This document shows, one piece after another, positions 1 to 8,024 of a DNA stretch of 10,060 nt (its first letter is position 1; each line of letters starts with the position of its first letter). The notes under the pieces are model-generated. The model worked only from the letters and a program-made list of their open reading frames with translations. It was not told the DNA's origin and ran no database searches. The translations under genes were made by a program, and so were the position numbers. Source of the stretch: Nitrospinota bacterium (lineage in GTDB: Bacteria > Nitrospinota > Nitrospinia > JACRGO01); the NCBI GenBank assembly GCA_016212295.1, contig JACRGO010000208.1, positions 1-10,060 of the forward strand, written 5' to 3'.

Positions 1-140
1 ATTTGAAATTTCAAAAAGGCGGCAAAAAGTGAAACGTTTTATGGCAAAAAGAGATAAATTTTCGGAATAGGCGAGTAAGTATCTCCAACCGTGAAAAAAC
101 ATTGCGCCTTTTTTGAAAATTTCAAATATTTTTGGCTAGG
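1..140. repeat. Palindromic intergenic repeat, left copy (contains 91-bp inverted-repeat arm 50-140)
   Basis: Positions 50-140 are the reverse complement of 2340-2430, with 88 of 91 bases identical; the three differences fall at the CCAACCGTGA/CCGGCCGTGT segment. The copy is itself roughly palindromic: bases 1-22 (starting ATTTGAAATTTCAAAAAGGC) match the reverse complement of 105-127 apart from two single-base gaps. The left part may continue before the window. There is no ORF and no transposase. The structure resembles a MITE or a REP-like element, but the family is not recognised. It lies upstream of the TRAP genes. Confidence 0.85.
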
Positions 141-180
141 AATTTATCGAATAAATTAATGCCTTTGGGTCAAGATTTTT

Positions 181-280
181 TTACCACAAAGCGCGCAAAG
201 GAGGCGCAAAGATCGCAAAGTTTTTCTCCGCGGTCTTTGCGGATTCTTTGCGTTCTTTGCGGTTAATCTTGGTTGTGGTT
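181..280. repeat. CGCAAAG-rich inverted repeat upstream of dctP
   Basis: Three CGCAAAG heptamers (194-200, 205-211, 214-220) are followed by three inverted copies, CTTTGCG (235-241, 246-252, 255-261). They are bracketed by ACCACAA near 183-189 and TTGTGGT near 273-279. The whole can fold into a long imperfect stem-loop just upstream of the DctP gene. Related A-rich periodic elements lie at 1391-1416 and 5914-5981. Elements of this style are common between genes in environmental genomes; no function is assigned. Confidence 0.75.
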
Positions 281-310
281 ATGTACTTTTTCTCGGCTTA
301 TTTTTTAAAT

Positions 311-314
311 GAGG
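311..314 (+). promoter_or_regulatory. Shine-Dalgarno GAGG deciding the DctP start
   Basis: GAGG at 311-314 lies six bases before the ATG at 321. This favours 321 over the in-frame ATG at 309, which overlaps the GAGG itself. The 321 start also gives a compact signal peptide beginning MNFKK. Confidence 0.6.
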
Positions 315-320
315 CTCGTG

Positions 321-1331
321 ATGAACTTTAAAAAAATCCTTTTAACAATTCCCTTCTTTCTCCTCTCCGTTGCGCTTATGCCGTTATCCGCCATGTCCGA
401 GGAAATTATTATAAAATTCGCCACCCTGGCCCCTGAAGGGTCCACCTGGATGAACCTCATGAAGGAAATGGATCTGGAAATCCAGAAAAAGACGACTGGA
501 AGGGTCAAGTTCAAAATCTACCCCGGCGGCGTGTCAGGTGATGAAAAGGACGTTGTCAGGAAAATGCGGCTTGGCCAGCTTCACGCGGGCGGGTTCTCAG
601 GGGTCGGCCTTGGGGAAATACTTCCCTCGGTGCGCGTGTTGGACCTTCCTTTTCTATTCAGGAACAAAAAGGAATTGGATTTTATCCAGGAAAAATATTT
701 TGACTGGTTCGCCAAGGCATTTGAGGAAAGCGGCCATATACTACTGGGATGGGCTGAGGTGGGCCCGGTTTATATATTCTCCAACGAGGAGATCCATTCC
801 CTGCAAGATATGAAGGGACACAAGATGTGGATGTGGGAAGGAGATCCCCTGGCGGCCGCCCTGTTCAAGGCGTTGAATCTCGCCCCATATCCCCTGTCAG
901 TAACTGACGTTTTGATGGCCCTGCAGACCGGGATGATCGACACCGTGTACGTGTCCCCCTTGGGCGCCATATCGCTTCAATGGTTCACGAAGGTCAAATA
1001 TATGATGGACCTGCCCATGGCGATATCCACCGGGGCGGTCACCATTTACAAGTCTCAATTCCTGAAGATTGCCCCGGAGGACCGCAAGATCATTCAGGAC
1101 GTGGCCGCCTCTTCACTGAAAAAATTGACCCTCACTTCCAGGTCGGACAATGAAAAATCCGTGCAGTTGATGAAGGATTACGGGATAAAGGTAATATCCG
1201 TGACTGACCCGGCCAGGATCGAGGAATTCCGAAGAGTGGGCGATCCTGTGAGGAAGGAATTGACAGGAAAACTCTTTCCCCAGGAGCTTATAAACGGAAT
1301 TATGAAGGACCTGGAGGGGTTGAGGAAGTAG
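321..1331 (+). CDS. dctP: TRAP transporter substrate-binding protein, DctP family
   Basis: This is the periplasmic solute-binding subunit of a tripartite ATP-independent periplasmic (TRAP) transporter. The protein has 336 residues, the usual family length. Residues 1-25 form a signal peptide (MNFKK, a hydrophobic stretch, then a probable cut after LSAMS). The mature domain starts with IKFATLAPEGSTW, and family features follow: IYPGG (66-70), LPFLF (109-113), the MKGHK hinge (164-168) and ALQTGMIDTVY (200-210). Classical DctP proteins have KIRVP after the GxK, with the Arg pairing to the ligand carboxylate; here the sequence reads HKMWMWEGD, so Trp170 appears to replace it. I recall similar KMW-WEGDPLA proteins in deltaproteobacteria, some beside TatT-type lipoproteins, but no tatT is present here. 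The ligand is unknown. A small-permease gene follows after a 113-bp repeat-filled gap. Confidence 0.92.
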   Translation: MNFKKILLTIPFFLLSVALMPLSAMSEEIIIKFATLAPEGSTWMNLMKEMDLEIQKKTTGRVKFKIYPGGVSGDEKDVVRKMRLGQLHAGGFSGVGLGEILPSVRVLDLPFLFRNKKELDFIQEKYFDWFAKAFEESGHILLGWAEVGPVYIFSNEEIHSLQDMKGHKMWMWEGDPLAAALFKALNLAPYPLSVTDVLMALQTGMIDTVYVSPLGAISLQWFTKVKYMMDLPMAISTGAVTIYKSQFLKIAPEDRKIIQDVAASSLKKLTLTSRSDNEKSVQLMKDYGIKVISVTDPARIEEFRRVGDPVRKELTGKLFPQELINGIMKDLEGLRK

Positions 1332-1342
1332 AGGATATTTGA

Positions 1343-1377
1343 GATTTCAGATTTCAGATTTGAAATTTCAGATTTAA
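1343..1377. repeat. Tandem 7-bp repeat, five units
   Basis: Five consecutive heptamers follow the pattern GATTTCA, GATTTCA, GATTTGA, AATTTCA, GATTTAA in the gap between the two TRAP genes. The 13-mer ATTTGAAATTTCA within it also occurs at bases 1-13 of the window. It is non-coding and separates two genes that would normally be tightly coupled. Confidence 0.8.
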
Positions 1378-1390
1378 GGACCAAAGAGCT

Positions 1391-1416
1391 TTTCGCGGCG
1401 TCCTTGCGTCTCAGCG
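1391..1416. repeat. Fragment of a CGCAAAG-type periodic repeat
   Basis: The stretch contains GCGTCCTTGCGTCTCAGCGG, a degenerate relative of the CTTTGCG units at 235-261. It ends 28 bases before the DctQ start, in a place where no Shine-Dalgarno sequence can be seen. The family assignment rests on appearance only. Confidence 0.45.
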
Positions 1417-1444
1417 GTAAAAAAAATTGAATTTTAAATATTCA

Positions 1445-1942
1445 ATGAACCTTATTAAAAAAATCGATTCTGCCATCTCAAAAATCGAAGGGATAATCAT
1501 TTCAGCCTTGCTGGCCGTTATGATCCTGATGGCCTTTTCCCAGGTGGTCTTGAGAAATTTTTTTCATGGGGGGATACCCTGGGCGGATATTTTCCTTAGG
1601 AACCTGGTCCTATGGGTATGCTTCATAGGGGCCTCCCTTTCATGCAAGGAACACAGGCACATCAATATCGATATCCTGAGCCGGTTTCTTCCCATTGGAT
1701 TCAGCAATATCGCCGGGATTTTTATAAATCTTGCTTCTTCCATCGTGTGCGGGTTCCTGGCCTCCGCCGCCTGGGGCTTCATGATGGACGAGCGCACCGC
1801 TGGGGGCTTTCTTTTTTCCGAAATTTCCACTTGGTACTTTTTGACTATTATCCCGGCGTCCCTTTCCCTCATGAGCGTTAGATTCTTCGTCTATTCATTC
1901 ATGCCATTCTCCGGCAAGGAATCCATTGTATTATCGCGTTAA
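1445..1942 (+). CDS. dctQ: TRAP transporter small permease, DctQ family
   Basis: This is the small membrane subunit of a TRAP transporter, which pairs with the large permease DctM and the binding protein. It has 165 residues from the ATG at 1445, with four hydrophobic segments at roughly 16-36, 52-68, 88-110 and 130-152. Family hallmarks are visible: FSQVVLRNFF (31-40), WADIFLRNLVLW (46-57, matching the WaeE-x-xR-x-x-x-xW pattern with Asp in place of Glu), IGASLSCKEHRHINID (61-76) and a closing SVRFF. An in-frame TTG at 1427 would add six residues; neither start has a clear ribosome binding site. No dctM follows, although the usual order is P-Q-M. DctQ and DctM can also be fused, but this protein ends cleanly at the normal Q length. 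A GC-rich hairpin begins 16 bases after the stop. Confidence 0.9.
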   Translation: MNLIKKIDSAISKIEGIIISALLAVMILMAFSQVVLRNFFHGGIPWADIFLRNLVLWVCFIGASLSCKEHRHINIDILSRFLPIGFSNIAGIFINLASSIVCGFLASAAWGFMMDERTAGGFLFSEISTWYFLTIIPASLSLMSVRFFVYSFMPFSGKESIVLSR

Positions 1943-1973
1943 GAAATTTATTTTGATTGCGGCCAAAGGCCGC
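1943..1973. repeat. Direct-repeat copy 1 with GC-rich hairpin after dctQ
   Basis: Bases 1943-1965 are identical over 23 bp to 8002-8024 in the feoB leader. The copy continues into a perfect 6-bp hairpin, GCGGCC-AAA-GGCCGC, at 1959-1973. The hairpin lies directly downstream of the dctQ stop and could protect or end the transcript, but no T-run follows, so it is not a standard intrinsic terminator. Confidence 0.75.
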
Positions 1974-2339
1974 GCCATCCATACACCGCGTGAGTTCAGA
2001 AAAAAATCCCTTCGTTTCATGCAATAATTTTACTTGCCAATTCGTTTAATGAGGTTTTCAGCCGTGAATGGATGTTGAAGTCTTGCAAGAGGAACAGCCG
2101 CCGCCGCAAAACGGCTTTTAAATTGTAAGTAAAGCTCCCAGCAAGGCCGCCTGATCTTGATATCTCCATGAGTTTTCCTATTAATGAAAAGCAGTGGTAC
2201 ATAAAAATGAAATGCGATGGTATTTCAGAGTCAACAAATTTACAATAGGATTTTTCTGACAAAAACAGGACGATTCTGGCTTTTGTGGGACTTTTGCGGC
2301 TTTTATGGGATTTTTACGTTATCAACGAAACTGCTGAAA
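1974..2339. other. Gene-free spacer, inner part of the inverted-repeat segment
   Basis: No credible gene is visible. Short open frames on both strands (about 81 codons on the minus strand at 2017-2262 and the start of a frame from 2217 on the plus strand) have no recognisable motif. I see no trace of DctM. A degenerate tandem pair of 20-bp units, GGCTTTTGTGGGACTTTTGC and GGCTTTTATGGGATTTTTAC, sits at 2278-2317 with 16 of 20 bases shared. Confidence 0.6.
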
Positions 2340-2430
2340 CCTAGCCAAAAATATTTGAAATTTTCAAAAAAGGCGCAATGTTTTTACACGGCCGGAGATA
2401 CTTACTCGCCTATTCCGAAAATTTATCTCT
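2340..2430. repeat. 91-bp inverted repeat, right copy
   Basis: This is the reverse complement of 50-140 with three mismatches in 91 bases. It starts CCTAGCCAAAAATATTTG and ends AAATTTATCTCT. The two arms enclose 2,199 bp that contain both TRAP genes. No target-site duplication was seen at the outer edges: ...GGCAAAA precedes the left arm and ATAGGCG follows the right arm. Confidence 0.9.
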
Positions 2431-2448
2431 ATAGGCGAGTAAGTATCT
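2396..2448. repeat. Perfect 18-bp hairpin at the outer edge of the right repeat copy
   Basis: The left stem AGATACTTACTCGCCTAT (2396-2413) and the right stem ATAGGCGAGTAAGTATCT (2431-2448) are exact reverse complements around a 17-base loop. The left stem and loop belong to the 91-bp repeat and the right stem lies just outside it. This suggests that the complete ancestral element was a longer palindrome centred on this loop. Confidence 0.9.
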
Positions 2449-2965: not shown

Positions 2966-5104
2966 TCAAAAATTCACGCCACTATTGCTGTCTACCCTAT
3001 AGTAGCCCTTCTTGATTTTCTCCTTCAGTGTAGCCGTCTTCTCGGTTGTCCCTTGTTTCAGCTTATACTTCCCGGCGGTCAGTTTGCTGAAGGCATACTT
3101 ACCGTTTTTAGGCGTGGTGGAGCTTAGCTTCTGGTACAAACCGTATTTTGGAGAATAACGGAACAGGGTGATGGAGGAGTTCCTGGCGGACTTGCCGGAT
3201 ATCTCCCCGCGGATAGTGTGGGACATGATAATGAAGGAGCTTGGTTTTTTCTTGCTGGAGCTTAGTTTGGATACCGTGGCGGAAACGATGTTATGCTTTG
3301 CGTCCACTTTGGATTTTAAGCGGGTGAGTTTGCTCCTGCTCTCCATTTCATAAAGCTGAAGGGACTGCTCGTTATATCCCTCTATCTCCGAATCATTATA
3401 GTGGACCTTGATAGTGTATGATCCCCCGCTCTTCTTCGACGCAGCGGCTTTATAATAGGAAGGCGCCCCGGATGAACCGCCGCAGAGATGGGCCACCTGT
3501 TCCCCTATCCCCGTATTTTCAGCTCCGCTTATGTTGGCAGTGGGAGAGTCATTGCTGTCCCCGCCGCAAACGTGTGGGGACTCCATGCTCATGCTGCCTG
3601 ATACATGGTCTGACGATGACGAGGTGACTGATGAATAGCCCGGATCTGAGCCGCTCCGCAGGTTTCCGGTAAGAGTGGTAACGGTGACCATTGGCATTAT
3701 GACCATTGATCCGCCGCCGCCGATTTCAGAGCGGGAATAGGCGAGCTGGGTCCCATCAGGCGACCACCTGATCCATTGCTTGTTGATATTGGTTTCTGGA
3801 TAAAATTCGTTGTTGAGGAAGACGTCCATAGTGGACTCGGCGGTGGAATCAAGGATGTACATTTTGATTTGGACGTTGTTATCGTTCATTCCCCCTTCGG
3901 AAGCGGAAACCCCGATCCATTTCCCGTCCCTGGACCAGCCCGGCGCCCCGCGAACGGAATAAGATGTGCTTTCCAATTTACTAACTACAGCGCCGCCCGG
4001 GTTGTTAGGGTCCGGGTTGGTTCCGCCTGCGCTGCCGCCAGGATTCGTGCCGCCACCTGAAGTCTCCGTGAAAGGCGTGACCTTCTGTGCCCTGGAATCG
4101 CTGAGAGATGTGATAGCGCCCGTCGTGCCCGCTATTATGTCTTGAATTCCATTCAGAACATAGATGTTTCCGCTTGCGGCCAAGACCCCAATCCTGTCAA
4201 CCGCCCTGACCCCAGTAGGATTTCCACCCGCGTCCGTAATGTCTTCAGGCGACCATGAGGCGGACCAGACCTGAAGTCCATCGGTGATTTGTACCGCCGC
4301 CTGCGCGCTCGTTAATTCATTTTTGTCCGCCGGATCAAAGGTTAAGGTCCAAAGGTCTCCGGCGTTGTCTCCAGCCACGGTCCTTAGAAAAAGCAGTCTT
4401 TCCTTTGCCGTTTTTTCGTCCCAAATGGACTCAGGCTTGATTGCGTTTGAATAATTTTTGGTTGAGGCTGGAAGCGCCGAATTCTGGAGAAAGGTGGTGA
4501 CGTCAGCGGTTATTGTGCCGCCTGCTCCACCTGGGTTGCCGCCTGGATTGTTAGGGTCCGGGTTATTCGGGTCAGGATTATTAACATTGCCATTGGGATT
4601 ATTAGGGTCAGGATTCGTGGCGTTCGGATCAGGGTTGGTTGCAGCCGCGCCTGTGGCTTTTTGCTGGGCCGGGTTATTGCTCTGGGTAGTGTCCTCGGTA
4701 TCGTCTATGTTAAAGGACATGATTTTTGCGTCAACGTTATCGTTTTCAGGGTCGGTCCAAAAAAGCATGCGCTGGTCGCCGGACACCCACGAATGATAAA
4801 CTCCGACGCTTGTCCCCATGTCGTATCGTTTGGACGAGGCATTGACGGTGTCGTAAATTTCAAGGTTGTTGCCGTTGGCGCCGGCAAGATAGCGCCCTGA
4901 TTGCGACCATGAAGGGTCGCCGCCTATGGCCACTTCAATCGAGTCCGTTGTATCCGCCGGCGTTTCGAAATCAGTGTTCTCCGCCGCCGGGTTGTCCAAT
5001 GCCTTAAGGCCGGCGAAGATAACAGCCGGAAGGACCAGGGGAAGGGACAATAAAACAAGGAGGATAATATTTTTCAGCGTCAGGGAATTTTTTTTCATTT
5101 TCAT
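2966..5104 (-). CDS. Secreted TolB/PD40-like beta-propeller protein with Asn/Asp/Pro linkers
   Basis: This 712-residue protein is not assigned to a named family. The start at 5104 has AGGAGA eight bases upstream. Residues 1-31 form a signal peptide (MKMKK, a Leu/Val-rich core, then AGLKA), so it is exported. WD40/TolB-like (PD40) blades are visible as DPSWSQSGRYLA (63-74), SASWSPED (281-288), APGWSRDGKWIG (387-398) and WIRWSPDGTQLAY (444-456). Two low-complexity linkers rich in NPDPN and GG (about 156-196 and 350-371) separate the blade groups. A Ser-rich stretch (484-560) holds two HxCGG motifs (Cys513, Cys541). The C-terminus (about 630-690) contains SSITLFRYSPKYG and NGKYAFSKLTAGKYKL, resembling a carboxypeptidase-regulatory or Cna_B-type beta-sandwich. 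It probably acts outside the cytoplasm in binding or assembly; no catalytic motif is seen. Confidence 0.85.
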   Translation of the reverse strand: MKMKKNSLTLKNIILLVLLSLPLVLPAVIFAGLKALDNPAAENTDFETPADTTDSIEVAIGGDPSWSQSGRYLAGANGNNLEIYDTVNASSKRYDMGTSVGVYHSWVSGDQRMLFWTDPENDNVDAKIMSFNIDDTEDTTQSNNPAQQKATGAAATNPDPNATNPDPNNPNGNVNNPDPNNPDPNNPGGNPGGAGGTITADVTTFLQNSALPASTKNYSNAIKPESIWDEKTAKERLLFLRTVAGDNAGDLWTLTFDPADKNELTSAQAAVQITDGLQVWSASWSPEDITDAGGNPTGVRAVDRIGVLAASGNIYVLNGIQDIIAGTTGAITSLSDSRAQKVTPFTETSGGGTNPGGSAGGTNPDPNNPGGAVVSKLESTSYSVRGAPGWSRDGKWIGVSASEGGMNDNNVQIKMYILDSTAESTMDVFLNNEFYPETNINKQWIRWSPDGTQLAYSRSEIGGGGSMVIMPMVTVTTLTGNLRSGSDPGYSSVTSSSSDHVSGSMSMESPHVCGGDSNDSPTANISGAENTGIGEQVAHLCGGSSGAPSYYKAAASKKSGGSYTIKVHYNDSEIEGYNEQSLQLYEMESRSKLTRLKSKVDAKHNIVSATVSKLSSSKKKPSSFIIMSHTIRGEISGKSARNSSITLFRYSPKYGLYQKLSSTTPKNGKYAFSKLTAGKYKLKQGTTEKTATLKEKIKKGYYRVDSNSGVNF

Positions 5105-5197: not shown

Positions 5198-5863
5198 TCA
5201 CTTTTCCACCGGTTTCCAGACGTGGATTTCCTCTCCTATGGACTCTTCCATGGCGATCTGGCGCTGGTCCACTTCCACCACTATTGCCGGGTAGGTCTGA
5301 TGGAGCCTGATCTCGACCCCAGGGGTCAGGCCCATGGCCAGAAGTTTATGCATCCGACTGTCGTCCCTGGTGTTAATGGAGATGATTTTGGCAGCGCTCC
5401 CTATCTTCATTCTAGTCAGGGGAATGGCGGCGGACTCGATGGAGCTTTGGGCCTCCACGCAGCATCTTCCTTCCGGTATTGGCGATCCGTGCGGGCATTT
5501 TTTTGGATGCCCCAGCAGGATGCAGATGGACTCCACCAACTCCGGCGCCAGGACATGCTCAAACTCGCAGGCCGCTTTCTCCGTTTCACTTACTCCTTTT
5601 CCAAGCACATCCACCATAAGCCGCTCCGCGAGCCTGTGCCTCCTGACAATGCCCTTGGCCATATCATTTCCTTTCGGGGTCAAGGTGATTTTTTCACCGT
5701 CAAAGATGAGGATGCCGTTGGATGCGAACTGATACAGGGCCTTCTCGTGCTCCTGGGCCGGATCGTGTTTTTTCAGATAGGAGAGCGTCAAATCATGGTA
5801 TTCAGCCAGATGCCACAAGGTTTCCAGTAGTTCGTCCTTTTTGTGATTTTCCTCCAAGTTCAT
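5198..5863 (-). CDS. DtxR/MntR-family metal-dependent regulator with C-terminal FeoA-like domain
   Basis: This 221-residue protein is probably an iron- or manganese-responsive repressor. The start at 5863 has AGGAGA at 5870-5875. Domains: an N-terminal winged-helix region (about 8-65, ending in LTPKG), then the dimerisation and metal domain with RRHRLAERLMVDVLG (74-88) and ACEFEHVLAPELVESI (98-113). Cys99, Glu102 and His103 correspond to the primary metal ligands of DtxR, and His76 and Glu80 to ancillary ligands. A loop LGHPKKCPHGSPIP (117-130) ends in GRCC (132-135). The C-terminal SH3/FeoA-like domain (about 145-218) has LLAMGLTPGVEI. The recognition helix (LSYLKKHDPAQEHEKALYQF) departs from the usual DtxR pattern. 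It lies 138 bp downstream of feoB on the same strand, consistent with iron control of that transporter. Confidence 0.88.
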   Translation of the reverse strand: MNLEENHKKDELLETLWHLAEYHDLTLSYLKKHDPAQEHEKALYQFASNGILIFDGEKITLTPKGNDMAKGIVRRHRLAERLMVDVLGKGVSETEKAACEFEHVLAPELVESICILLGHPKKCPHGSPIPEGRCCVEAQSSIESAAIPLTRMKIGSAAKIISINTRDDSRMHKLLAMGLTPGVEIRLHQTYPAIVVEVDQRQIAMEESIGEEIHVWKPVEK

Positions 5864-8001: not shown

Positions 8002-8024
8002 GAAATTTATTTTGATTGCGGCCA
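8002..8024. repeat. 23-bp direct repeat, copy 2, in the feoB leader
   Basis: This is identical to 1943-1965 after dctQ. Here the match stops at the first loop base, so the GGCCGC half of the hairpin seen in copy 1 is missing. It falls within the predicted untranslated leader of feoB. Confidence 0.8.

Follow-up and report, generated by a model that had tools for sequence, protein, structure and literature searches.

Bacterial MITEs, among them Chunjie, QMITE2 and RUP, have been reviewed in PMC10969869: they are non-coding repeats of less than about 500 bp, present in many copies, with ends that are mutual inverted repeats and, in young copies, with a target duplication. The REP/BIME sequences with RAYT (PMC2817692) are also short and present in many copies, and they carry a short palindrome with a GT(A/G)G head. 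The window, i.e. the whole stretch of 10,060 nucleotides analysed here, contains two copies of a repeat that can be compared with both. It corresponds to the entire contig C166 of a 3.74-Mb genome that is 90.5% complete in 237 contigs. The two copies form inverted arms around dctPQ, the genes of a TRAP transporter, and we conclude, with a probability of about 0.88, that they arose from two independent and oppositely oriented insertions of one small dispersed repeat, which is non-coding, asymmetric-ended and MITE-like, the enclosure of dctPQ being a by-product of repeat density.

The inverted repeat around dctPQ

The original prediction described an inverted repeat at 50–140 and 2340–2430, and re-alignment bore it out: the two arms are complementary at 88 of 91 positions, with mismatches at 87, 88 and 94. 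This pairing is far beyond the chance level: no inverted pair in the window is longer, and each arm is a member of a family spread through the genome. Only the edges had to be corrected. The true ends of the elements lie at base 139 on the left and at 2341 on the right, so that the pairing at the 91st position is fortuitous and lies in the flank. The right copy runs on to 2448, where positions 2431–2448 represent the opposite end of the same element, and the pairing is limited to 91 bp because of an internal deletion in this copy. As the contig begins within the left copy, the left arm is part of a longer element (Table 1).

Table 1. Repeat copies and TRAP transporter genes of the dctPQ locus
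Feature	Position	Strand	Description
Left repeat copy	1..139	+	Right-hand 139 bp of the 204-bp element, the remaining 65 bp being on contig C187; ends ...TTTGGCTAG at 139
dctP, TRAP solute-binding protein	321..1331	+	PF03480, 2.5e-41; alternative ORF start at 309
dctQ, TRAP small membrane subunit	1445..1942	+	PF04290, 1.2e-20; start codon uncertain
Right repeat copy	2341..2448	-	108 bp, internally deleted, with the first 18 nt of the element fused to its last 90 nt

Between the arms there are only dctP, dctQ and non-coding DNA, as confirmed by the Pfam matches of the two proteins. Each gene is present in a single copy in the genome, and the ortholog of dctP in the sister species is 71% identical. 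The right copy is placed in the spacer of two convergent genes, dctQ and a 712-aa PD40-repeat gene (2966–5104), and is predicted to fold into an 18-bp hairpin plus the right end (z -6.5). Pfam annotation of the seven main proteins of the window revealed neither a recombinase nor a transposase, and the outer edges of the two copies share no target duplication; the original prediction likewise saw no transposase and no target duplication.

Several other features of the window were observed. A perfect 42-bp inverted repeat (TTAACACACCCCGGCCTTCGGCC...) at 2702–2743 and 2849–2890, with 105 bp between its halves, is of another kind than the dctPQ arms. The region 176–280, between the left repeat and dctP, forms a strong imperfect hairpin of CAAAG/CTTTGCG units (z -6.2), which is resembled by GCAAAG/CGCAGAG inverted repeats inside some copies of the dispersed element. 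An exact 23-bp direct repeat, GAAATTTATTTTGATTGCGGCCA, occurs at 1943–1965 and at 8002–8024, 6 kb apart. The minus-strand gene at 5198–5863 encodes a metal-dependent repressor dimerisation domain fused to a FeoA domain and adjoins feoB.

The genes dctP, dctQ and dctM are often adjacent in other genomes (e.g. G002 and G004). Here dctM is alone on contig C229 (L189:4254-5522), away from dctPQ, and in the sister species, too, it is separated from dctP. A search for the repeat near dctM gave no copy in this genome and just a right end about 5 kb off in the sister. Displacement of dctM by the repeat was thus rejected, as dctM is apart in the sister too and neither genome has a repeat right beside it; the dctPQ/dctM split is not explained by the inverted repeat.

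A dispersed repeat family of variable length

Copy numbers were obtained by targeted searches of the genome, with 65 matches to the 91-bp unit, 99 to the right end (≤3 mismatches) and 65 to the left end (≤2 mismatches, inner copies included). In the one sister species sampled, 110 right ends and 101 left-end cores were counted. The left-end core is absent from the 75 other genomes of the class searched, and the exact left-end 18-mer has no match in the named GTDB genomes. The original prediction proposed a genome-wide count, hundreds of unrelated sites being the sign of a coincidental enclosure; several dozen scattered copies were found, with 65 unit matches and 99 right ends. No description of this family was found in the open-access literature, and it is apparently undescribed in Nitrospinia. 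Several contigs start or end inside the repeat, which documents a Nitrospinia family that breaks assemblies, the window edge being one such break.

The full element measures about 204 bp; ten of the copies found are nearly complete, and about twenty more are long but partial. Its left end reads AGATACTTACTCGCCTATTCTGAGAATTTATCTC... and its right end ...TTTCAAATATTTTTGGCTAG; both ends recur inside it in inverse orientation, so that the 204-bp form contains two interleaved internal inverted repeats. The various forms range from 46 bp to a few hundred bp. In the shortest one, the left end is joined straight to the right end, while in other copies of both species unrelated inverted repeats are found between the constant ends, the interiors being interchangeable. 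The repeat is non-coding and rich in AT, and most of its copies are intergenic; crude ORF calls showed no clear bias in its orientation relative to neighbouring genes. Several copies start at the stop codon of the upstream gene, and the base just left of the element is nearly always T.

Individual copies show further rearrangements. In the shortened copies of L007 and of the window (2341–2448), what is left of the start is precisely the first 18 nt (AGATACTTACTCGCCTAT), after which each copy picks up again at an inner AG (AGTGAA, AGAGAT); this identical retention suggests that a shared deletion mechanism may have operated. In L041 (contig C127), a different repeat with inverted ends, CAGCAATTCTCGGTGAAA, is inserted inside an element copy and, on visual inspection, seems to have produced a 9-bp target duplication (AAGTAAAAC/AAGCAAAAC). 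At the sister loci L090, L210, L231 and L232, a reversed right end (AAAAGATATTTT) abuts the left end in a back-to-back arrangement.

Origin of the two arms

Four contigs, C12, C177, C187 and C181, have exact overlaps of 73–74 bp with the window start. The genes at the end of C187 are fmdB and one for a 4Fe-4S protein. In the sister species the 4Fe-4S gene, fmdB and dctP are consecutive, in the same order and on the same strand, without the element. When C187 is joined to the window, a 204-bp element is found between fmdB and dctP, and fmdB takes the AG of its stop codon (T|AG) from the start of the element; the join is inferred, since the four contigs overlap equally well, C187 was chosen by synteny and no single contig spans the junction. 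The most plausible reading of the left arm is then that it was inserted between fmdB and dctP, with dctP oriented as in the sister. A comparison with relatives had been proposed as a check: the sister keeps the fmdB-dctP order and orientation without the left copy. dctQ was not found in the sister, whose contig ends just after dctP, so the comparison covers the left side, in one sister species.

A single difference separates the left arm from the copies on C184 and C51, and three separate it from the right arm; the right arm is equidistant from C149, C199 and the left arm. When 45 to 99 copies were scattered randomly in simulations, the number of inverted neighbour pairs to be expected within 2.4 kb was 0.7–3.0 genome-wide. 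Given these arm distances, the chance pairs expected, the single-copy dctP and dctQ, and the failure to find a recombinase in the window, the enclosure needs no special explanation. Of the three readings initially offered, that of two independent insertions of one repeat family is the one supported by family membership, arm distances and sister synteny. The left copy would have inserted at the fmdB stop codon, upstream of dctP, and the right copy, shortened to 108 bp, would have come to sit downstream of dctQ. The spread would be due to a transposase acting in trans, mobility being deduced from copy number and dispersal, and the pair of arms would have no role for dctPQ.

A different view of the family is that the repeat is not a mobile element but a retained intergenic signal, such as a hairpin for mRNA stability or for the mRNA 3' end, its copies having arisen in another way. 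The mostly intergenic position, the starts at upstream stop codons and the folding of the long forms, far better than that of shuffles (z -7.6 and -6.5), are consistent with such a role. We consider it improbable, as the 46-bp form tested folds no better than chance (z -0.4), the interiors are interchangeable, a clear orientation bias to neighbouring genes is absent, and no Rfam family is matched at the gathering score, the matches below it being mainly of the microRNA type.

It is very unlikely that dctPQ forms an invertible segment, flipped by homologous or site-specific recombination between the arms with, for example, a change of promoter. Two inversely oriented 90-bp arms that are 97% identical could act as substrates for homologous recombination, but dozens of sites carry arms of this family, the search of the window gave no recombinase, and the orientation of dctP to fmdB is the same in both species, the left junction being based on assembly overlap and synteny. 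This removes a tempting phase-variation reading of the transporter locus. The least credible reading is that of a non-autonomous composite transposon made of dctPQ and the two copies of one repeat that flank it, as the cargo is single copy, the left arm is nearer to copies elsewhere, neither a transposase in the window nor a target duplication shared by the outer edges was found, and the left-side synteny with the sister, where fmdB and dctP are in the same arrangement, already contradicts it.

Relation to known small mobile elements

The repeat resembles bacterial MITEs (PMC10969869) in its length of < 500 bp, its non-coding, AT-rich and mainly intergenic character, its dozens of copies, its truncated variants and its capacity to form hairpins, but differs from them in two canonical features. 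It has no terminal inverted repeats, as seen by comparing AGATACTTAC with CTAGCCAAAA, the reverse complement of the right end, and the 26 + 38 end pairs examined for a target duplication across the family match no more than shuffled pairs. Because of these unlike ends and of the lack of a target duplication above chance, the repeat, as judged from sequence, is MITE-like and not a canonical MITE. With REP/BIME and RAYT (PMC2817692) it shares the short length, the many copies and the inverse nested and clustered arrangements, but not the short palindrome with a GT(A/G)G head. The flanks of the RAYT-like genes in this genome lack the ends of the repeat, and different palindromes surround one of these genes.

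No autonomous IS with the same ends was found in a genome that is fragmented at the repeat, the transposases checked being of the Y1 type. An end pair around a PIN-domain gene (C3, 706 bp), the only pair 0.7–6 kb apart among the listed ends, was taken as chance. A more specific proposal, which we put forward tentatively and regard as doubtful, is that these could be genus-restricted miniature elements with asymmetric ends, moved without target duplication by a putative transposase. Their constant ends would frame interchangeable inverted repeats, and they would often insert exactly at gene boundaries, where they would give the preceding gene a stop codon (T|AG). Through this family, a transposase that leaves no target duplication might be found. 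As none of the Y1 transposases checked in the two genomes is flanked by the repeat ends, they were rejected as the autonomous partner. With non-autonomous derivatives of IS200/IS605-like elements the repeat has in common unlike ends, the absence of a target duplication and a T-rich left flank; as a difference, no Y1 transposase bracketed by its end pair was found in either genome.
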